Source of the DNA: Polyangiaceae bacterium
GTDB lineage: Bacteria; Myxococcota_A; Polyangia; Polyangiales; Polyangiaceae
Reading direction: 5' to 3'
DNA length: 36,974 nucleotides
Assembly (NCBI GenBank): GCA_020849655.1
Contig: JADLFU010000177.1
Coordinates: 1 to 36,974, forward strand
Shown: positions 13,371 to 34,713 of the stretch, in pieces
Layout: each line of letters starts with the position of its first letter
Numbering within the stretch: position 1 is the stretch's first letter
Made by a program: the position numbers and the translations under genes
The notes under the pieces: generated by a model
What the model was told of the DNA's origin: nothing
Databases searched by the model: none
The model's input: only the letters and a program-made list of their open reading frames with translations

Positions 13371-15287
13371 TCAGAGCGGCGCGGGCAGGTAGGGCAACAG
13401 CTTGACGCGGAGCTTGCCGGAGTACGAGAAGTCACATGAGTTGCACTGTGTGATCCCGCCGGTGCACACGCCACCCTTGCCGCTGCCCGTCGTCTGGTGG
13501 ATGCACTTGTAGAGCAGCCTGTAGTCCTCTCCCCCGGGGTAGTAGGAGAGCCCCGTCGGGTTGCCGATCTGCCCCGGGGAGGCGAACTCGTTGATCTTCG
13601 CCAGCGGGCTGGAGGTGCCCACCGTCAGGGTGCAGTCGGAGCCGGACCCGCTCAGCACCTCGGAGATCGGCTTGTCGACCGTGAAGAGCTTCGTCTTGGA
13701 GCCGCTGCCGACCGTCGAGTCGCCGCCGCTCGTCGTCTTCGCCTCCACGAGCGCCTGGGCGAGCCTCACGGTGCTGGCGTCGATGACGGTCCACGTCTGG
13801 CGAACGTAGATCCCGAGCGGCTCGTCGTCGAAGTACGGATCGACCCCGCCGCCCGTCTTCGACACCGCCAGGGTCAGCTCGACCCGGAGGTCACCCGCGA
13901 CGACCGGCTTGATCGTCACCTCCCCCTCGCACGCCGTCCCCTCGTCGACGGCGCCCGAGCAATCGTTGTCGAAGCCGTCGCACACCTCGACGCCGAGCGG
14001 GCTCACGGTCTTGCGCGCGTCATCGCAGTCGGTGGCGGGAATCCCGGAGCGCCACGCAGGGTTGGAGTCGGGCGGCGCGCAGCTCGGCGCCGAGCTCGAG
14101 CCCAGCGCGCCGAAGCCGTCGCCGTCCGCGTCGAGCACCCAGACCACGCTCGTGACGCTCTCGTCGATCGCGCCGTTGCAGTTGTTGTCCTTGCCGTCGC
14201 AGGCCTCGGTGTTGCCGGGGAACACCGTCCCGTCCTTGTCATCGCAGTCGTCGGCGAGCCCGGTCAGCACCCATACCCCGTCGCACACCGCGCCCGCGGG
14301 CCCCACTGGCACTCCCACGGCCGGAGTCGCGCACGACTTGTGCTCCAGGGGCGGCGCCTTGGCGTCGAGGTGGCCGTCCGCGTCGGGGTCGCAGCGCCAG
14401 GTCTTCTGATCGAAGGCGTCCTCGTCCGCCGTCCCGTCGCAGTCGTCGTCGAGGCCGTTGCACGTCTCGACCTGGGGCCCGATCGCCCCTACGCACGGGC
14501 CGAACGTCGCGGCGCCCCCCGACTGCACGGCGCAGGTGCGCGCGCCGTACTTGCAAGCGCCCTTCGGCGAGCCGCCTGGGTACGTGATCGGCTTGCCCGA
14601 CGCGTCGGTGGCGCACGTCCCGTCGACGTCCCCGACCGCGCAGGCGCAGCTCGTGCCGTTGGTCAGAGTGTTGTCACCCTCCGAGCCGGAGCAGTCCTGG
14701 TCGACCCCGTCGTTGCAAGCGTCGCTGTGTCCCTCGCCGGCGGGCCCGTCCCAGCCCTTCGGGTTGGCCTTCGGGTTGGTGTCGTCGCAGTCGTTGCCCA
14801 GCTGGATGGCGACGGGGGTGTCGGACACGACCTTGCATTTGTTGCGTCGGTACCCGTCACCGTCAGAGTCCTTCGCGGCGTAGGCGCAGGCGCCCGCCGT
14901 GCAGCTCGCCTCGGCGCAGTCGGCCGGCTGCGTCTCGGGGAGGGGACAGTCCTTGGAGGTGGCGCAGCCCCCCGACGTGCCGGCCTGACCGGCGGCGCCC
15001 GCCTGCCCCGCCGCGCCGCCGCTGGCCTTGCCGGCCGCGCCCGCCTGCCCTGCCACGCCGGCGGCGCCCGCTTGGCCGGCCTTGCCTGCCGTGCCCGCCT
15101 GCCCAGCGGTGCCTGCCACGCCGCCGCGTCCCGCTTGCGTCGCTCCCGAGGCGCCCGCCTTTCCCCCTCCGGCGCCGCTCGCCCCTCCGGCGGAGGGCGC
15201 GCCGCTCGCGGCGTCGTCGCCCCCGCACCCGAGCCAGAGGATCGCGGAGGTCAAGGCAAGGATGGCCGTCGAAAGAACGCTCTTCAT
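13371..15287 (-). CDS. MopE-like lipoprotein with DCDD metal-binding motifs
   Basis: 638-residue surface lipoprotein. The signal MKSVLSTAILALTSAILWLGC ends at lipobox Cys21. Residues about 29-107 are Gly/Ala/Gln-rich repeats (GQAGAAG). The central 300 residues carry repeated acidic Cys motifs: GNDCDDTNP, LDDDCDGTADE, ADDCDDKDG, DNNCNGAIDE, TDCDDARK and DNDCSGAVDE. These alternate a long DCDD form and a short DxDC(D/N/S)G form, as in the putative metal-binding motif family PF11617 named after the copper-regulated MopE. Several DxDGDG loops (DSDGDGY, DADGDGF) suggest calcium binding. The C-terminal 200 residues are beta-rich with CTGGITQCNSC and have no recognised family. The stop is 17 bp from the downstream DUF2505-like gene. 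Confidence 0.9.
   Translation of the reverse strand: MKSVLSTAILALTSAILWLGCGGDDAASGAPSAGGASGAGGGKAGASGATQAGRGGVAGTAGQAGTAGKAGQAGAAGVAGQAGAAGKASGGAAGQAGAAGQAGTSGGCATSKDCPLPETQPADCAEASCTAGACAYAAKDSDGDGYRRNKCKVVSDTPVAIQLGNDCDDTNPKANPKGWDGPAGEGHSDACNDGVDQDCSGSEGDNTLTNGTSCACAVGDVDGTCATDASGKPITYPGGSPKGACKYGARTCAVQSGGAATFGPCVGAIGPQVETCNGLDDDCDGTADEDAFDQKTWRCDPDADGHLDAKAPPLEHKSCATPAVGVPVGPAGAVCDGVWVLTGLADDCDDKDGTVFPGNTEACDGKDNNCNGAIDESVTSVVWVLDADGDGFGALGSSSAPSCAPPDSNPAWRSGIPATDCDDARKTVSPLGVEVCDGFDNDCSGAVDEGTACEGEVTIKPVVAGDLRVELTLAVSKTGGGVDPYFDDEPLGIYVRQTWTVIDASTVRLAQALVEAKTTSGGDSTVGSGSKTKLFTVDKPISEVLSGSGSDCTLTVGTSSPLAKINEFASPGQIGNPTGLSYYPGGEDYRLLYKCIHQTTGSGKGGVCTGGITQCNSCDFSYSGKLRVKLLPYLPAPL
14967..15203 (-). 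repeat. Gly/Ala/Gln repeat region in MopE-like lipoprotein
   Basis: Degenerate short coding repeats giving GQAGAAG, GKAGQAG and GTAGQAG motifs. They have the same architectural position (directly behind the lipobox) as the Gly-rich linkers of the VWA and RCC1 lipoproteins but a different unit, so they arose independently or diverged strongly. Confidence 0.85.
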
Positions 15288-26461: not shown

Positions 26462-26803
26462 TTGCGCGTGCTCCGACGCTTCTGGCTCCTGGCGGGCTCT
26501 CTCGCCCTGCTACTGGCAGCCTGCTTCGTCGCGCCCCCCGCGCCTCCCTCCGACGTCGCGCGGTCGATGACCACCGCGCGCGCGCCCGCGCCCTGCGTGG
26601 ACGGCTCCGACGAGGAGGAGGAGGGGCAGGAGGAGGAGGGGGAGGAAGAGGGCGCTCAAGCAGAGGAGGTCGCGCACCTCGGTCGGGTCGCCCCCGACGC
26701 GGGGACTGTGCAGAGCTCCAGGCGACTGTGGTTGCCGTGTGACCGGCGCGACGGCCAGGGCTCGTGCCCGCCCGACGTGCCCCCTCCCCGCGCCGGCGTC
26801 TAG
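26462..26803 (+). CDS. Small acidic lipoprotein, hypothetical
   Basis: Up to 113 residues. A clean lipoprotein signal (RRFWLLAGSLALLLAAC) ends in LAAC. The mature part has a Pro-rich stretch, a Glu cluster coded by a nearly pure purine tract (26612-26653) and four cysteines. No family is recognised. The start may be TTG at 26462 or GTG at 26468; neither has a strong ribosome-binding site. The lipobox makes it likely to be a real gene. Confidence 0.55.
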   Translation: MRVLRRFWLLAGSLALLLAACFVAPPAPPSDVARSMTTARAPAPCVDGSDEEEEGQEEEGEEEGAQAEEVAHLGRVAPDAGTVQSSRRLWLPCDRRDGQGSCPPDVPPPRAGV

Positions 26804-27037: not shown

Positions 27038-29140
27038 ATGAGTCACGACATGGATGCAGAGGCCAGCGGTGTCCCCGCTGGCGCTCACAAGGATGAGTTG
27101 CGCGCGACAGCCGCGCGGTTTCTGGGATCGTGGAGGTACACCTGGCAGGCGAGGGCGCCGGGGCCCGATCTCCTCGCTGGCCTCACGGTGGCGGCGGTGG
27201 CGCTGCCGCTCAACGTCGGCCTCGCGATCGCGAGCGGGATGCCGCCCTCCGCGGGCCTCGTAGCAGGCGCTGTGGGCGGGCTCGTCGCGGCCCTCGCGGG
27301 CGGATCGCAGCACCAGGTGACGGGGCCCGCCGCGGCGATCAGCGTGATGGTGCTGGCGCTCGCGACGAAGTTCGGCCTGGTCGGGGTCGCCGCCGCGACA
27401 GTGTACATCGGCTTCGTGGAGATCGCGCTCGCCGCCGCCCTCGCGGGGCGCGTCGTGCGGTTCGTGCCCGAGTCCGTGCTCGCGGGCTTCACCACGGGGG
27501 TCGGCATCAAGCTGCTCGACCAGCAGTTCCCGGTGCTGCTCGGGTTCCCGAAGCTGGTCGACTGGGCGTCTGGCGGTAAGGTCGATCTCATCGACATGGT
27601 GTCGATGATGCACCAGCCGCGCTGGCTCCGCGACGTCTCGTGGCTGGCGGTCGTCTGCGGGGTCGTCGTCATCTTCTTCGTGACGGCGACCGCGCAGTTC
27701 AAGCGGTTTCCGGCGGCCATCCTCGCGATCGGCGCCGTCACGTTCGTCTCGGTGTACCTCGGCTGGAGGGTCGAGCGCGTCGCGGGCCTCGGCGACATCC
27801 CGTCGACGCTTCCGTTGCCCAGCTTCCCGCTGCTCCCCGAGGAGCGCTGGCTGGATCTCGTGATCACCGCCACGCCGCTCGCGCTCCTGGCGGCGGCGGA
27901 GTCGCTGCTGTCCGCGCGGGCGATCGACCGCATGGCGAACGCCAAGCATCCACACGATCCTAACGTCGAACTCGCCGGCCAGGGGCTCGCCAACCTCGCC
28001 GCGGGGCTGTTCTCGGGCATGCCGGTCACGGGCGTCGTCGCCCGGAGCGGTGTCAACGTGCAAAGCGGCAACCGGACCCGGCTCTCCGCTGCGACCCACG
28101 CCGTGTGCCTCATCGCCGCGGTGATGTTCCTGTCGCGGTACATCGTGCAGGTGCCGCTCGCGGCGCTGGCGGGGCTGTTGTGTGTGATCGGCTGGCGCCT
28201 GATCGAGCTCCGCACGCTCGCGCACGTGTACAAGGAGAGCAAGCTCGACGGCCTGGCGTTCGTCATCGCCGCCGTGGGGACGGTCTCCGGGAGGCTGATG
28301 GTCGGCCTCGCGCTCGGCCTCGCGGTGCATTTCGTCGACCGATGGCTGAGGCGCCACGAGCTGCGCGAGAAGGGGGGGATCTCCGGGCAGCGTCCGGGGG
28401 TGCGCGCCGTCCTCGCGAAGGAGCGCGCCGAGGCGCGCAGGCCTGCGCATTTCGACCACCTGCCCGTCGAGTACCGCAAGTGGCTCGGGCAGCTGCGCGA
28501 GGCGCCCCTCGTCGCGCCCTCCGCGTACGTGCACCCGGCCGCGACCCTCATCGGGCGCGTCGTCGTGGGCGACCGCGCGCACATCGCCGCCGACACCTGC
28601 GTGCGCGCCGACGAGGGCTCGCCGTTCTTCATCGGCCCGAACACCAACCTGCAAGACGGCGTCGTGTTGCACGCGCTGAAGGACAAGCGCGTGATGGTCG
28701 GCGGCGAGGGCTGGGCCATCTACGTGGGGCAGAACGTCTCGGTCGCGCACGACGCGCTCGTGCACGGCCCCTGCTACATCGGCGACGACACGTTCGTCGG
28801 GTTCAAGGCCGTGGTGCACGACTCGGTGGTCGGCGAGCGGTGCTTCATCGGCATCGGCGCGGTCGTGGTCGGCGTCGAGATCCCGAGCGATCGCTTCGTC
28901 CCCCACGGCCGCATCGTCGACTCCGCGGACGCGGTCGACGCGCTGCCCCACCGCAGCCACGCGCACGCCGAGTTCAACGAGGACGTCGTCGAGGTCAACC
29001 GCGGCCTCGCCGTCGCCTACCACGCCCGCGACCGCGAGCGCGCAGCCGCCACGGAGCTGAGCCGCGCCGAGCGCGAGCACGCCCCGCCTCCCACCTGGGA
29101 CGTCGCGTGGGCCCCCGCCCCCACCAAGGAGATCTTCTGA
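27038..29140 (+). CDS. SulP anion transporter fused to a gamma-carbonic anhydrase
   Basis: 700-residue fusion. Residues about 28-440 are a SulP (SLC26/BicA-like) carrier with about eleven to twelve transmembrane helices: LLAGLTVAAVALPLNVGLAI, the GSQHQVTGPAAAISVMV core and RSGVNVQSGNRTRLSA. The STAS domain that normally ends SulP proteins is absent. After a charged linker (about 445-485), residues 486-665 form a left-handed beta-helix of the gamma-carbonic anhydrase family. Zinc ligands are His545 (VVLHAL), His571 (VAHDAL) and His576 (VHGPCY); VRADEGSPF and NTNLQDG give the catalytic Arg, Asp/Glu, Asn and Gln. The pattern is nearest to CcmM/CamH. The predicted role is uptake of bicarbonate (or another anion) coupled to CO2/HCO3- interconversion on the cytoplasmic face. 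The ATG at 27038 has GGTGGAG upstream; an earlier ATG at 26921 only adds 39 Pro/Arg-rich residues. The stop overlaps the next start (TGATG). Confidence 0.93.
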   Translation: MSHDMDAEASGVPAGAHKDELRATAARFLGSWRYTWQARAPGPDLLAGLTVAAVALPLNVGLAIASGMPPSAGLVAGAVGGLVAALAGGSQHQVTGPAAAISVMVLALATKFGLVGVAAATVYIGFVEIALAAALAGRVVRFVPESVLAGFTTGVGIKLLDQQFPVLLGFPKLVDWASGGKVDLIDMVSMMHQPRWLRDVSWLAVVCGVVVIFFVTATAQFKRFPAAILAIGAVTFVSVYLGWRVERVAGLGDIPSTLPLPSFPLLPEERWLDLVITATPLALLAAAESLLSARAIDRMANAKHPHDPNVELAGQGLANLAAGLFSGMPVTGVVARSGVNVQSGNRTRLSAATHAVCLIAAVMFLSRYIVQVPLAALAGLLCVIGWRLIELRTLAHVYKESKLDGLAFVIAAVGTVSGRLMVGLALGLAVHFVDRWLRRHELREKGGISGQRPGVRAVLAKERAEARRPAHFDHLPVEYRKWLGQLREAPLVAPSAYVHPAATLIGRVVVGDRAHIAADTCVRADEGSPFFIGPNTNLQDGVVLHALKDKRVMVGGEGWAIYVGQNVSVAHDALVHGPCYIGDDTFVGFKAVVHDSVVGERCFIGIGAVVVGVEIPSDRFVPHGRIVDSADAVDALPHRSHAHAEFNEDVVEVNRGLAVAYHARDRERAAATELSRAEREHAPPPTWDVAWAPAPTKEIF

Positions 29141-30027
29141 TGTTGATGATAGGATTGTTTGTTGGCATCGCGCTCTACGCGCTCGTCGTGCTGTCCCGCT
29201 CGGTGTTCAAGGTGGAGGAGGGGCACGTCGCCGTCCTCGTCACGTTCGGCCGCGCCGAGACGCGCGCCGACGGCTCGCTGCTCACGCACCGCCCCGGGCT
29301 CCACTGGAAGAAGCCCTGGCAGCACGTGATCGTCGTCTCGACGATGGAACAGACGCTCGACCTCGGCTGCGAGACGGGCGGCAGCACGGCGATGGCGGAC
29401 GACGGCACGATCCTGCGGCTCGACTCGTTCATCCGCTACGTGCCGGTCGAGGCCGAGCTGCACGAGTACCTGTTCGGGCTCGCGCGGCCGCTGCCGCACA
29501 TCACGGGGCTCTTCACCTGCCTGCTCCGCAACGAGATCGCGAACTTCCGGGGTCGCGGCGACGGCGCGGCGGCGAGCCTGGCGACGCGCTTCGACTTCTC
29601 GCGGCAGGCGGGCTCGTACTCGCTCATCCGGCGGGAGCGGAAGCTGCTCAATGACCGCATCCACGAGTTCTGTCGAGAGAAGATCGACGATCGCTACGGC
29701 GTCAGGTTCAACGCCGTCGATCTCGCGGACATCCTGCCGCCCGACGAGCTCGCCGACGCGCTGAACGCGGTCATCCAGGCGCAGACGGAGGCCGAGGGGC
29801 GCCTGTTCCGCGCGGAGGGCGAGTGCCAGCAGCGGCTCCTGTCGGCCGAGCGGGGCGTCGAGATCGCGCGCGCGCGCGCGGGCGCCGTCGAGCTCGAGAT
29901 CGCCAAGCTCGCCTCGTACCTGGACGATCTCGACGCGACGGGCGTGCTCGCGGACTACGTCGCGCGGAGGCGCCGCGAGGTGCTCGGCGAGGCGCGCGTG
30001 ACGTACGTGAAGGAGGTGGCGGCATGA
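29140..30027 (+). CDS. SPFH/band-7 domain protein (HflK/stomatin-like), first of a pair
   Basis: 295-residue membrane protein with one N-terminal helix (residues 1-20) and a band-7/SPFH domain: FKVEEGHVAVLVTFGRAE, RPGLHWKKPWQHVIVVSTME, then a coiled, Ala/Glu-rich C-terminal region (AQTEAEGRLFRAEGECQQRLL, ERGVEIARARAG). SPFH proteins assemble into large membrane microdomain scaffolds and, as HflK/HflC, cage the FtsH protease. ATG at 29140 shares one base with the SulP-CA stop. The first nine codons (ATG TTG ATG ATA GGA TTG TTT GTT GGC) are strikingly A+T-rich for this genome, probably to keep the coupled start unstructured. The end overlaps the next SPFH gene (ATGA). Confidence 0.9.
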   Translation: MLMIGLFVGIALYALVVLSRSVFKVEEGHVAVLVTFGRAETRADGSLLTHRPGLHWKKPWQHVIVVSTMEQTLDLGCETGGSTAMADDGTILRLDSFIRYVPVEAELHEYLFGLARPLPHITGLFTCLLRNEIANFRGRGDGAAASLATRFDFSRQAGSYSLIRRERKLLNDRIHEFCREKIDDRYGVRFNAVDLADILPPDELADALNAVIQAQTEAEGRLFRAEGECQQRLLSAERGVEIARARAGAVELEIAKLASYLDDLDATGVLADYVARRRREVLGEARVTYVKEVAA

Positions 30028-30905
30028 CGACCCAGGACTGGCTCCAGCTCGCGCTCGGCGCGGCGGCGGGCCTCGCGCTCCTCCCGGCGCTCGCGCTCCT
30101 CTTTCGCGCGGTGACCCTCGAGGTGGACGACGAGGAGGCCGTGCTGGTCACGCGCTTCGGCAAGCTCGCCCACACCTTCACGAAGCCGGGCCTCGAGTGG
30201 TTGCCCGAGAAGCTCCTGCCGTGGGTGAAGCACACCCGCGTCTCGTTGCGCCGAGACTTTCGGCACTTCAAGGACGTGCACGTCAACGACGCGCGCGGCA
30301 CGACCGTGATCGTCGATCTGTGGGTCGAGTTCCGCGTCGCCGATCCGGCGAAGGCCATCTTCTCGGTGACGAGCTGGGACTCGTCGCTGCAGAACCTCGT
30401 CTCGCACGCCGCGACGTCCATCCTCGGCAGCAGGGAATTCCAGGAGATCCTCTGCGACCGCACCGATCTCGGCGCGGAGCTCCGCGACGACATCGCGACG
30501 GAGACCGCGGCGTGGGGGGTGGCGATCGAGTTCGTGTTCATCCGCAACGTGAGCCTCCTCCCGGAGGTCTCGCGCCAGATGTTCGAGACGATCGCGGCGC
30601 GGCTCGAGCGCACGAAGGCGCACATCGAGGAGGCGGGGAGGCTCGAGGTGGCGAAGCTCGAGGCCGACACCGCGATGCGCACGGCCGAGCTGGTCGCGGA
30701 GGCGAAGGGGCAGTACCCGGCCGCCGTGGGCCGCGCGCTCGGCGCGCTCCGCGACCGACCCCGCGTGTACGCGGCCTACAACGAGCTGTACGAGCTGTCG
30801 CTCGTGCGGCCGCACAGGACCGTGTCGTTCGTCGGGTTCGACGCGGGAGAGCTGAAGGCCGTGGAGGCCGCGATGGTGACGGCGCCGCCCACCGAGGCGA
30901 GGTAG
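30024..30905 (+). CDS. SPFH/band-7 domain protein (HflC/stomatin-like), second of the pair
   Basis: 293-residue partner of the preceding gene. An N-terminal helix (LALGAAAGLALLPALALLF) is followed by VDDEEAVLVTRFGKLAHTFTKPGLEW and IVDLWVEFRVADPAKAIFSV of the SPFH domain, then the coiled segment RLERTKAHIEEAGRLEVAKLEADTAMRTAELVAEAKG interrupted by a short turn (AEAKGQYPAAVGRAL). Sequence and arrangement resemble HflK/HflC or prohibitin pairs; the partner protease FtsH is not in the window. ATG at 30024 overlaps the previous stop by four bases. It converges on the ABC transporter operon with 13 bp between stop codons. Confidence 0.9.
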   Translation: MTTQDWLQLALGAAAGLALLPALALLFRAVTLEVDDEEAVLVTRFGKLAHTFTKPGLEWLPEKLLPWVKHTRVSLRRDFRHFKDVHVNDARGTTVIVDLWVEFRVADPAKAIFSVTSWDSSLQNLVSHAATSILGSREFQEILCDRTDLGAELRDDIATETAAWGVAIEFVFIRNVSLLPEVSRQMFETIAARLERTKAHIEEAGRLEVAKLEADTAMRTAELVAEAKGQYPAAVGRALGALRDRPRVYAAYNELYELSLVRPHRTVSFVGFDAGELKAVEAAMVTAPPTEAR

Positions 30906-30918
30906 CGCCGAGGCCGAG

Positions 30919-31893
30919 TCAGCCGAGGAGCGGCGTCGCGCGCGTGACGGAGAGCCGGACGGTCTCTCCCCGCGCGGGCGGCGCCAGCCCTGGCCCGAGC
31001 GCCCACAGCTCGACGCCGCGCGCGCGGACGAGCACGGACGACGAGGCCCCCGCGTAGGTGACGTCGAGCACCTCGCCCTCGAGGGGGCCGGCGCCGAGGG
31101 TGACGTCCTCGCGACGCACGGCGATCGGGCCGTCGGCGTCGAGCCCGAGCGCGGCGGCGCCAAGGCGCTCGAGGACGTTCGCGCCGCCGAGGAACCGCGC
31201 GACGAACCGCGTCCGGGGTCGAGAGTAGACCTCGCGCGCCGGGCCGACCTGCTCGACGCGCCCTTCGCGCAGCACCGCGAGGCGATCGGCCATCGCGAGG
31301 GCCTCGTCCTGATCGTGGGTGACCAGCACGAACGTCGTCCCGAGGCGTCGCTGCAGCGCCCGCAGCTCCTCGCGCACGGAGAGGCGCAGCGCGGCGTCGA
31401 GCGCGGAGAGCGGCTCGTCGAGCAAGAGCAGCCGCGGCCGGCACGCGAGCGCGCGCGCGAGCGCCACCCGCTGCTTCTCGCCCCCCGAGAGCCCGGCGGG
31501 CCGCCGGCCCTCCTTGCCGGTCATCGAGACGAGCAGGAGCGCCTCCTCCACGCGCGCCGCCTGCTCGGCGCGGCTCGCGCCCCTCATCCTCGGTCCGAAG
31601 GCGACGTTCTCGGCCACGGTCATGTGAGGAAACAGCGCATAGGACTGGAACACCTGGTTCACGTCGCGCTCGTACGGCGGCACGTGGGAGACGTCCGCGC
31701 CGTCGAGGAGGAACGCCCCGCGCGTCGGCGGCAGGAGGCCCGACATCACCCGCAAGAGCGTCGATTTTCCGCAGCCGGAGGGGCCGACCAGGACGAACAG
31801 CTCGCCCTCCTCGACGTCGAGGCTGACCTCGTCGACGGCCCAGGTGTCGCCCAGCCGCACGCCGACGCCCTGGAGCGACGCCACGACCGTCAC
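30919..31893 (-). CDS. potA: ABC transporter ATP-binding protein, PotA type
   Basis: 324-residue ATPase of a spermidine/putrescine-type importer. Walker A is GPSGCGKST (residues 37-45); the Q-loop is VNQVFQSYALFPHMTV, the signature LSGGEKQRVALARAL, Walker B LLLLDEPLSALD and the H-loop LVTHDQDEAL. After residue 230 there is a TOBE_2-type regulatory domain (FLGGANVLERL, IAVRREDVTLG). The start is GTG at 31893, overlapping the stop of the preceding permease (GTGA). It is the last gene of the transporter operon. The gene symbol is by similarity; substrate specificity is inferred from the binding protein. Confidence 0.93.
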   Translation of the reverse strand: MTVVASLQGVGVRLGDTWAVDEVSLDVEEGELFVLVGPSGCGKSTLLRVMSGLLPPTRGAFLLDGADVSHVPPYERDVNQVFQSYALFPHMTVAENVAFGPRMRGASRAEQAARVEEALLLVSMTGKEGRRPAGLSGGEKQRVALARALACRPRLLLLDEPLSALDAALRLSVREELRALQRRLGTTFVLVTHDQDEALAMADRLAVLREGRVEQVGPAREVYSRPRTRFVARFLGGANVLERLGAAALGLDADGPIAVRREDVTLGAGPLEGEVLDVTYAGASSSVLVRARGVELWALGPGLAPPARGETVRLSVTRATPLLG

Positions 31894-32759
31894 GACGCCT
31901 CCGCCCGGCCCGCGACGGCGCGCGCGGCCGCGGTGAAGGTGAACAGCGCGAACAGTGTGACGAGCACGGCGCCCAGCGCGGCGCCGAACGGCCAGTCACG
32001 CCCGCCGCCGAGCGCGCTCGCGATCACGCTCCCGACGAGCGGCGCGCGCCCCCCGCCGAGGAGATCGACGACCGCGAACATGCCGATCGCGGGGAGGAAG
32101 GTGAGCGTGATCGCCGCGACGACGCCCGGGCGGAGCGCAGGCAAGGCGACGTGCACGAACGCGCGGACAGGCGTCGCGCCGAGGTCGAGCGCGGCGTCGA
32201 GCAGGCCAGGATCGAGGCGCGCGAGCGACGCCTGGATGGGAATGACGGCCATCGGAAAGTAGACGAACACGAGCCCTGTCATCGCCGCGCCCGGCGTGTA
32301 CAGCAGCCCCAGCGAGTCGCCCCCGAGGCCGAGCGCTCGCAGCAGCGCCGCCACCCAGCCGTCCGCCGCGAGCAGCGTCATCAGCGCGTAGGCGCGCACG
32401 AGCACGCCCGTGAAGAACGGCACGATGACCAGCAGCGAGAGCCGTCGCCCCCAGCGCGGAGGGGCCGCCGCGATCGTCCACGCGACGGGGATCGCGAAGG
32501 CGACGCAGACGGCGGTCACCGCGGCCGCCGCGCCGAGCGAGCGCGCGAGGACGCCGAGGTAGAGCGGTGACAGCGCGCGCCGTACGGCCTCCGTCGAGGG
32601 GCGGGCGATGACGTCCCCCAGCTCGTCGCGGTCGGCGAACGCGTACGCGAAGAGCACGACGAGCGGCAGCGCTACGAGCACGGCGGCGTGCAGCGACAAG
32701 AGGGAGAGCACCACGCGCGACGCCGCGCCCGCGCCCCACGACCGCGCCCCGGCGCTCAC
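31890..32759 (-). CDS. potB: ABC transporter permease, PotB type
   Basis: 289-residue inner-membrane permease with six predicted helices (VVLSLLSLHAAVLVALPLVVLFAYAFADRD; FFTGVLVRAYALMTLLAADG). The EAA loop that docks the ATPase is seen as LLDAALDLGATPVRAFVHVALPALRPGV. The family motif with VIVPFFTGVLVRAYAL matches PotB/PotH-like permeases. The start is GTG at 32759 overlapping the stop of the binding-protein gene (GTGA); the frame upstream of it is antisense-like. Both ends overlap neighbours, so translation is coupled. Confidence 0.93.
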   Translation of the reverse strand: MSAGARSWGAGAASRVVLSLLSLHAAVLVALPLVVLFAYAFADRDELGDVIARPSTEAVRRALSPLYLGVLARSLGAAAAVTAVCVAFAIPVAWTIAAAPPRWGRRLSLLVIVPFFTGVLVRAYALMTLLAADGWVAALLRALGLGGDSLGLLYTPGAAMTGLVFVYFPMAVIPIQASLARLDPGLLDAALDLGATPVRAFVHVALPALRPGVVAAITLTFLPAIGMFAVVDLLGGGRAPLVGSVIASALGGGRDWPFGAALGAVLVTLFALFTFTAAARAVAGRAEAS

Positions 32760-33844
32760 CGGAGCTTCGCGCGGAGCTCGGTGACGAGCCGGTCGACGTC
32801 GGCGGCCGCCTTGCCGATGTCCCGAAACGTGCCGAGCTTGCCGGGGCTCTTGGGGTAGCTGGCGGGGTTGTCCAGCGCCTCCTTCGAGAGCAGCTTGCGC
32901 GCGTCCGCGTTGGGGTTCGTGTACGGGAACTTGTCGGAGATGAGCCTCGACACCTCCGGTCGCAGCACGTGGTCGATGAAGGCGTGCGCGGCGTCGGGGT
33001 TCTTCGCCCCCGCGGGGATGCACAGGTAGTCGACGAAGCGGTGCGCGCCCTCTGACGGCAACACATAGCTGTATTTCTTGTCGGCCTGGATGAGCGCGGC
33101 CGCCTCGCCGCTGAACACCACGCCGAGATCACAGTCTCCGTTGAGCATCGCGGACTTCGGGCTGTCGGAGTCGAACACCTTGACGAGCGGCAGCCACCGC
33201 TCGAGCACGGGCTTGACCTTCGCCAGCGTCTGGGCGCTGACGTCGTTGGCGTCGATGCCCAGGGTCGCCATCGCCCACGAGACGATCTCGCGGGCGTCCG
33301 AGACGACCACGATCCGGCCCTTGTGCTTCGGCGTGAACACGTCGTTGAACCCCGCGATCGGCTGCTTGACCTTCTCGGTGTTCACCGCGATCCCGACCGT
33401 GCCGGCCATGTACGGCACGCCCCACTCGTCCCTGGGGTCGTGCGGCAGGCCCAGGTACTCGGGGAGCAGGTGCCGGCGGTTGGGGATCCTGGCGGCGTCG
33501 ATCCGCGCGAGCTTGCCCTTCTTCGACAGCGCCTCGACCATGTACTCGGACGGCTGGAGCAGATCGTACGCGGCGCCGCCGGCGAGCAGCTTCGTCAGCA
33601 TCTCCTCGTTCGAGGAGTAGGCCTCGTACTTCACCTTGACGCCGGTCTCGCGCGTGAAGCCGTCGATGACCTCGGCCGGGACGTACTCGCTCCACGCGAA
33701 CAGCACGAGCTCCCCGCTCGGACGCCGCGGCGTCGCCGGGGAGGACGAGGCCGCCGCGGGCGCGCCGCTCGCCGAGGGCTTCTTGTCGCACGCCGCGAGC
33801 GAGAGGGCGGCGAGCTGTCCGAGGAAGAGGCGACGAGCGCGCAT
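32756..33844 (-). CDS. potD: Polyamine-type ABC transporter substrate-binding lipoprotein, PotD/PotF type
   Basis: 362-residue periplasmic binding protein. The signal MRARRLFLGQLAALSLAAC ends in a lipobox (LAAC), followed by a Ser/Ala/Pro linker. The mature N-terminus has LVLFAWSEYVPAEVIDGFTRETGVKVKYEAYSSNEEMLTKL, the usual opening of PotD/PotF-like proteins. YDLLQPSEYMVEAL, VPYMAGTVGIAVNTEKV and CDLGVVFSGEAAAL line the ligand cleft, and YLCIPAGAKNPDAAHAFIDH near the C-terminus is also typical. Ligand is most likely spermidine or putrescine by family; exact specificity cannot be read. ATG at 33844, 53 bp after the preceding permease stop. Confidence 0.93.
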   Translation of the reverse strand: MRARRLFLGQLAALSLAACDKKPSASGAPAAASSSPATPRRPSGELVLFAWSEYVPAEVIDGFTRETGVKVKYEAYSSNEEMLTKLLAGGAAYDLLQPSEYMVEALSKKGKLARIDAARIPNRRHLLPEYLGLPHDPRDEWGVPYMAGTVGIAVNTEKVKQPIAGFNDVFTPKHKGRIVVVSDAREIVSWAMATLGIDANDVSAQTLAKVKPVLERWLPLVKVFDSDSPKSAMLNGDCDLGVVFSGEAAALIQADKKYSYVLPSEGAHRFVDYLCIPAGAKNPDAAHAFIDHVLRPEVSRLISDKFPYTNPNADARKLLSKEALDNPASYPKSPGKLGTFRDIGKAAADVDRLVTELRAKLR

Positions 33845-33897
33845 GGCGGGCGGCGACGGTACCCGCAATCCACCAGCTTGGGGGAGCCGTTCTCTCG

Positions 33898-34713
33898 TCA
33901 CTGGCGTGTGGCGAGGCGATCCGCGCCGACCACCATCACCGCCGTCACCCCCAGCAACACCGTAGACGCCGCGTGCAAGAGCGGGCTGACGCCGACGCGC
34001 GCCATGCCGTACATCACCACCGGCAGCGTGGCGGTGCCGGGCCCCCTCGTGAAGTAGGTGACCACCAGCTCGTCCAGCGACAGCGCGAAGGTCAAGAGCG
34101 CGGCGCCGGCCACGGCTGGCGAGAGGGCGGGGAGGATGACAGTGAAGAAGGCGCGCGCGGGCGTCGCGCCGAGGTCGAGCGCGGCCGCCTCGAGCGACGG
34201 ATCGAGCAGCTCGATCTGCGCGCCCACCGTCGCCAGCACGAACGGCAGACAGAACGACAGGTGGCCGAGCACCACTGTCGACAGCCCGAGCTCCAGGCCC
34301 AGCGCGCGGAACGTCACGAGCAGCGACACGCCCAGCAACAAGTCCGGCAGGACCAGAGGCACGCCGAGCGCCGCGTGGAGCGTCGCCGCGAACCGCCGGC
34401 GCGGGCGCCGCAGCACCCAGGCGCCCGGCGCCCCCAGGCCGACGGCGAGGACCGTCACCGCCAGGGCCACGACGAGGCTGGTCGACGCCGCGTCGAGCAG
34501 CGGCATCGCGCGGACGCCGCGCAAGTGGTCCGCCGCCTGCGCGCCGAGCGCCCGGTACCACCCGAGCGTGAGGCCTCCCCACGCGGGCCCGAGGCGCGTC
34601 GCGTTGAACGACGACACCGCCATCACCACGATGGGGATCCACAGCGCGAGCACCGTCGGCGCCGCGATCGCCGCGAAGCCCCACGACAGGCCACGAAACC
34701 ACCGACCGCGCAT
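33898..34713 (-). CDS. potC: ABC transporter permease, PotC type
   Basis: 271-residue permease, first gene of the transporter operon. Six helices are predicted (AAIAAPTVLALWIPIVVMAV; TSLVVALAVTVLAVGLGAPG; LPLVLPDLLLGVSLLV-like segments). The EAA loop is LEAAALDLGATPARAFFTVILPALSPAV, and LSLDELVVTYFTRGPG near the end is typical of PotC. ATG at 34713; a GTG at 34731 would add six residues. Operon order is permease C, binding protein, permease B, ATPase. Confidence 0.92.
   Translation of the reverse strand: MRGRWFRGLSWGFAAIAAPTVLALWIPIVVMAVSSFNATRLGPAWGGLTLGWYRALGAQAADHLRGVRAMPLLDAASTSLVVALAVTVLAVGLGAPGAWVLRRPRRRFAATLHAALGVPLVLPDLLLGVSLLVTFRALGLELGLSTVVLGHLSFCLPFVLATVGAQIELLDPSLEAAALDLGATPARAFFTVILPALSPAVAGAALLTFALSLDELVVTYFTRGPGTATLPVVMYGMARVGVSPLLHAASTVLLGVTAVMVVGADRLATRQ

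Follow-up and report, generated by a model that had tools for sequence, protein, structure and literature searches.

Three genes lie start-to-stop in the window, as the whole 36,974-nucleotide stretch of DNA that was analysed is called here: one encodes a SulP (SLC26) carrier fused to a gamma-carbonic anhydrase (CA), and the two behind it encode SPFH proteins, SPFH1 and SPFH2 (Table 1). The stop codon of the fusion shares a base with the start codon of SPFH1 in TGATG (TGA 29138-29140, ATG 29140-29142), SPFH1 and SPFH2 overlap in ATGA (30024-30027), and the gene positions and overlaps given by an earlier sequence-only reading of this DNA proved exact to the base. The ribosome-binding site of SPFH1 is set within the end of the fusion, a layout also present in relatives. 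Between a YajQ-like gene and these three is a short lipoprotein-like ORF with a Glu/Gly-rich stretch (26462-26803, plus strand), which may be spurious. Directly 3′ and convergent are PotABCD-like polyamine ABC transporter genes (30919-34702, minus strand; the Pfam check covered the ATPase only), an adjacency that is not kept at other fusion loci. A protein with MopE-type putative metal-binding repeats (PF11617) is encoded at 13371-15287 on the minus strand.

Table 1. Features of the three-gene locus, in window coordinates
Feature	Position	Strand	Basis
SulP (SLC26)-gamma-carbonic anhydrase fusion gene, 700 aa	27038-29140	+	
SulP transmembrane domain, residues 44-410, without STAS; closest solved structures SLC26Dg and BicA	27167-28267	+	Foldseek
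Linker joining the carrier to the enzyme, disordered, residues 445-476	28370-28465	+	AlphaFold2 pLDDT < 50
Gamma-CA left-handed beta-helix domain, residues 482-665	28481-29032	+	
Conserved C-terminal tail of the fusion, here WDVAWAPAPTKEIF; candidate docking peptide	29096-29137	+	
SPFH1 ribosome-binding site AAGGAG, within Lys-Glu codons of the fusion, 8 nt 5′ of the ATG	29126-29131	+	
SPFH1, HflC-like, with a single TM helix at the N-terminus, a pair of SPFH subdomains and a long coiled coil	29140-30027	+	
SPFH2, HflK/stomatin-like	30024-30905	+	

In the AlphaFold2 model of the fusion, a SulP fold is followed by the disordered linker, a left-handed beta-helix with a C-terminal helix and a disordered end (residues 691-700). 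The carrier half matches PF00916 (Sulfate_transp) with an E-value of 3.7e-62 (210.7 bits, against a cut-off of 23.2), and Foldseek places its transmembrane fold with those of SLC26Dg (5iof, TMt 0.89) and BicA (6ki1, TMt 0.85). A C-terminal STAS domain is usual, though not universal, in SulP/SLC26 transporters. There is no Pfam match to STAS in the fusion, and the gamma-CA stands where that domain is usual, so that its replacement, as first read from the sequence, is upheld; this, and the drawing of the carrier from two separate SulP clades (see below), sets the fusion apart from both solved relatives. From BicA it also differs in having Glu rather than Asp in TM8 (by alignment), and against the NCBIfam BicA equivalog it scores 142.8 bits, under the cut-off of 880. 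SulP carriers also transport sulfate, chloride and dicarboxylates, and none of the residues examined singles out bicarbonate, which would be the probable substrate here.

For the enzyme half the best solved relatives are CcmM (3kwc, 7e-45) and Cam of Methanosarcina thermophila (3e-40), and the CA domain of the AlphaFold2 model superposes on Cam at 1.3-1.6 Å. With Cam and the N-terminal domain of CcmM it shares the left-handed beta-helix and nine catalytic and zinc residues: R523, D525, E526, Q539, D540, H545, H571, H576 and N654 in the window correspond to R59, D61, E62, Q75, D76, H81, H117, H122 and N202 of Cam, in its established numbering. All nine, the three zinc histidines included, are invariant in 49 of 49 non-redundant fusions. 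The position of the Cam proton shuttle, E84, is occupied by lysine in the same 49 (K548 in the window), and the acid loop is shortened as it is in CcmM, whose solved structure carries the title ‘active’. Differences from both proteins are the tethering to a membrane carrier through a disordered linker and the extra C-terminal tail; in contrast to CcmM there are no RbcS-like repeats and no carboxysome, and the fusion scores 184.5 bits against NCBIfam CcmM, under the cut-off of 550. On its residues and predicted fold, the fused gamma-CA can be expected with good confidence to be active.

Scanning 84,980 species genomes with two CA peptide patterns, which divergent fusions may escape, gave 43 fusion loci. 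Their hosts are soil and water bacteria, namely Myxococcota and two Bdellovibrionota-type MAGs (one Oligoflexia, one Bdellovibrionaceae, the distribution in that group being based on these two loci), and the sole named isolate is Citreicoccus inhibens M34. That the SPFH genes stay beside the fusion in relatives, a point on which the sequence-only reading had staked its proposal, is borne out: SPFH1 is directly behind the fusion at each of the 41 loci whose contig is long enough, and SPFH2 follows at 39 of 39. In the reverse direction, a search from SPFH1 of 379 Myxococcota genomes (the whole-genome searches being of this Myxococcota sample only) gave 17 close relatives, spread over 15 genomes and scoring 234 bits or more, all of which immediately follow a fusion; after them the scores of Myxococcota SPFH proteins fall to at most 142 bits, and none of these is behind a fusion. 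All-against-all comparison of the flanking ORFs found no further conserved neighbour, save within small sets of near relatives. The two-way linkage, together with the lack of any other kept neighbour, indicates that the unit is the three genes, moved and retained together. The three-gene set is a real, obligate module, and one that is almost certainly functional. Chance adjacency, or hitch-hiking synteny, has next to no probability and is ruled out by the recurrence of the three-gene order at every fusion locus with sufficient contig and by the absence of another conserved neighbour; across Myxococcota and the Bdellovibrionota-type MAGs, at 38-85% identity, the linkage persists while the other neighbours all change. 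Separately, five near relatives (L028, L029, L033, L053 and L061) have a flotillin-like SPFH gene roughly 1 kb 5′ of the fusion on the opposite strand; it is confined to these five, in which the module may have a scaffold of a third type linked to it.

Both SPFH proteins match PF01145 (Band_7; 6e-17 for SPFH1, 9e-24 for SPFH2). The AlphaFold2 model of SPFH1 has E. coli HflC as nearest fold, then HflK, prohibitin, stomatin and QmcA; a single TM helix at the N-terminus, a pair of SPFH subdomains and a coiled coil are shared with HflK-HflC, stomatin and QmcA, and the pairing with HflK/HflC. Of the description ‘HflK/HflC-like SPFH proteins’ offered from the sequence, the kinship stands in that HflK and HflC are the closest named relatives, but the pair is below the curated NCBIfam HflC/HflK equivalog cut-offs (34 bits vs 134 for SPFH1, 66.5 vs 159 for SPFH2) and its predicted topology is reversed. 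In SPFH1 no Lys or Arg precedes the TM helix and at least one follows it in 47 of 47 members, and SPFH2 has a bias in the same direction in 34 members and in the opposite direction in none (the HflC and QmcA sequences used for comparison having been entered by hand). By the positive-inside rule these flanking charges predict that the SPFH domains face the cytoplasm, the side on which a CA attached to a SulP carrier would be expected. The domains are therefore probably cytoplasmic, opposite to HflC, with the rule being a weak one for a single TM helix; HflK and HflC of E. coli face the periplasm (PMC12005517). A further difference from HflK-HflC is the dedication of this pair to one operon partner. 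An ordinary HflKC was considered and rejected, both on the curated cut-offs and because the Myxococcota SPFH genes that come next in similarity have no fusion ahead of them. The window genome has two further Band_7 genes, which are not adjacent and not evidently an HflK/HflC pair.

The fusion ends, after a variable linker, in a tail that in relatives follows the pattern W(D/E)xxW...(E/D)RF-COOH. Phe is terminal in 47 of 48 complete fusions and is preceded by Arg in 39, mostly with an acidic residue ahead, and one or two Trp stand further upstream in most; the very end of the tail is the segment predicted to be disordered. The terminal Phe is not explained by the TTCTGATG overlap of the genes, since it is also the last residue in 21 of 21 loci at which more than 15 nt separate the fusion from SPFH1. 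No comparable conservation was found at the C-termini of SPFH1 and SPFH2. The natural reading of such a tail is as a candidate docking peptide, for which the putative SPFH ring would be the obvious partner; that it docks there is a tentative suggestion, held on the low side of even. A different role for both tail and pair would be quality control, with SPFH1 and SPFH2 as a dedicated FtsH-adaptor complex for the fusion and the tail as a degron or protease tag instead of a dock. The nearest named relatives being modulators of FtsH is in keeping with this, but the scores under the HflK/HflC cut-offs, the predicted topology opposite to that of HflC and the lack of an FtsH gene in the conserved neighbourhood make it quite improbable.

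The three parts have not kept the same company. Six fusions, here type B (L057-L060, L115 and L130), have SulP halves with 26-30% identity to that of the window, and CA halves 63-80% identical to the window CA. In the SulP tree, the 40 halves of type A and the 6 of type B form two distinct clades (support 99*/100*) with unfused Myxococcota SulPs falling between them, and in their own trees the CA and SPFH1 of type B nest within type A. A single type B clade is rejected for SPFH1 (p 2.5e-6), marginally so for CA (p 0.039), and is not rejected for SPFH2 (p 0.276). Over all members the correlation of distances is 0.76-0.78 for CA with SPFH vs 0.42-0.46 for SulP with SPFH. L130 has a type B carrier, yet its CA and SPFH1 are nearest to those of L106 and the window. 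Trees and distance correlations point to the enzyme and scaffold as the constant chassis and to the carrier as the exchangeable part; on this phylogenetic reading, the carrier half is drawn from two separate SulP clades and has been swapped onto the chassis at least two times. The genome of L130, G375, has two copies of the module, L136 (C13) and L137 (C3), one per carrier type, and the CA and SPFH1 of its type B copy are close to type A copies.

That the carrier changes while the chassis stays the same suggests bicarbonate as the common currency, with the SulP half setting the counter-anion or coupling ion. This could be taken further, to an antiporter for anion uptake in which the CA and SPFH chassis would convert respiratory CO2 to bicarbonate next to the carrier, as export currency, and the SulP half would select the anion imported. 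Two unrelated SulP clades on a single chassis, the nearest relatives of the enzyme and scaffold of L130, and the presence of both types in G375 speak for such a system. Carrier exchange may equally reflect different coupling ions, however, and the antiporter is viewed as possible but rather doubtful.

What the hosts do with inorganic carbon is also pertinent. RuBisCO was not found in the window genome, which agrees with the statement in the sequence-only reading that there is no sign of autotrophy here, nor in 17 of the 19 other carrier genomes. Of the 20 carrier genomes 19 have a beta-CA, as non-carriers do, and alpha-CA was found in none of seven genomes tested. In most carriers the module is thus not a CO2-concentrating mechanism feeding RuBisCO, and it is not usually the only CA; a role in autotrophy and one as sole housekeeping CA were each considered and, the former for most carriers and the latter in general, rejected on these counts. 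Two carrier genomes, G125 and G163 (L132 and L133), have a match to the RuBisCO large family. In G379, 91% complete, neither beta- nor alpha-CA was found, and there the fusion may be the main carbonic anhydrase.

The original proposal was of bicarbonate uptake with hydration or dehydration at the membrane, clustered or protected by the SPFH pair. Worked out further, SulP would import bicarbonate and the CA would equilibrate it at the membrane for anaplerotic carboxylases or proton consumption. BicA-type carriers do import bicarbonate, the gamma-CA is of the CcmM/Cam class, and a can2-sulP cluster in Acidithiobacillus has been proposed to serve uptake (PMC6458275). Against this, a CA fused to an importer would turn bicarbonate into freely diffusing CO2, useful only with CO2 fixation or proton consumption, and the findings on RuBisCO (not found in 18 of 20 carrier genomes) and on separate beta-CA do not fit well. 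As a whole this proposal now seems rather unlikely, and the sequence-only reading is upheld in part. The failure of the SPFH pair at the curated cut-offs, its reversed predicted topology and the exchangeability of the carrier move the weight to a transport metabolon centred on the CA.

The reading that we favour, and consider fairly likely, is that the three genes make up a metabolon for bicarbonate transport that is complete in itself and held together by an SPFH ring, in analogy to the red-cell set of AE1, CA and stomatin. The SulP half would move an anion, most likely bicarbonate, either by itself, together with a cation or against another anion, and the fused gamma-CA, on the cytoplasmic face, would produce or remove bicarbonate at the mouth of the carrier. 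SPFH1 and SPFH2 would assemble together in the membrane as a ring or dome, in the manner of HflK and HflC, with SPFH domains that are probably cytoplasmic, and would gather or enclose the fusion, perhaps through its C-terminal (E/D)RF tail; physical assembly of the SPFH proteins with the fusion is proposed with moderate confidence. In hosts that mostly show no sign of fixing CO2, the module may serve CA-fed exchange or export of bicarbonate and the handling of pH and CO2, which is the most economical account when set beside CO2 concentration for RuBisCO. On direction, exchange or export and net uptake are evenly balanced. A stronger version has a dedicated SPFH hetero-ring or dome on the cytoplasmic face enclosing fusions by way of the (E/D)RF peptide and so confining CO2 and bicarbonate beside interchangeable carriers, as a membrane-attached compartment. 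This is speculative and on present indications rather unlikely, but if true would be a new type of bacterial inorganic-carbon compartment, without carboxysome or CO2 fixation.

Carbonic anhydrases are thought to act in ‘transport metabolons’ with bicarbonate carriers, though the physical link in animals is disputed, and the effects of SPFH scaffolds on transporters are largely open. Here enzyme and carrier are on one chain with an SPFH pair locked on across many genera, in a compact system whose parts (scaffold, enzyme, carrier, candidate docking peptide) are genetically separable and can be taken away singly. It would add an inorganic-carbon system to bacteria that mostly have no sign of CO2 fixation. 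The picture of a CA at the carrier mouth with an SPFH scaffold has two published precedents. In red cells, which have AE1, CA and stomatin together (PMC5383999, PMC8714990), stomatin raises the bicarbonate flux of AE1; it binds this Cl-/HCO3- exchanger, and its loss lowers bicarbonate permeability by 47% (PMC5383999). Stomatin domes also enclose AQP1 and UT-B (PMC12407830). The likeness lies in the combination of a bicarbonate-type anion carrier, a CA and a stomatin-family scaffold, but there the proteins are separate while those of the module are fused and co-encoded, with an unrelated class of CA and a carrier of SLC26 rather than SLC4, so the two are convergent at most.

In the open-access literature no description was found of a SulP-gamma-CA-SPFH system, nor of its tail or the swapping of its carrier, in line with the earlier suggestion that a gamma-class fusion with an SPFH pair is undescribed as a system. 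SPFH scaffolds and, separately, SulP-CA fusions of the beta class were already known; new are the invariant nine residues, the two-clade carrier exchange, the conserved Phe tail and the SPFH charges that predict a cytoplasmic face. Fusions of the Rv3273 type, which also join a SulP carrier and a CA, have been proposed as bicarbonate transporters (Felce & Saier 2004, as cited in PMC6458275); the module differs from them in the gamma class of its CA (CcmM/Cam type), the lack of STAS and the constant presence of the SPFH pair. L016, in a relative, is by eye from its translation a SulP-STAS-beta-CA fusion of Rv3273-like form, which suggests that Myxococcota have at least two independent types of SulP-CA fusion.
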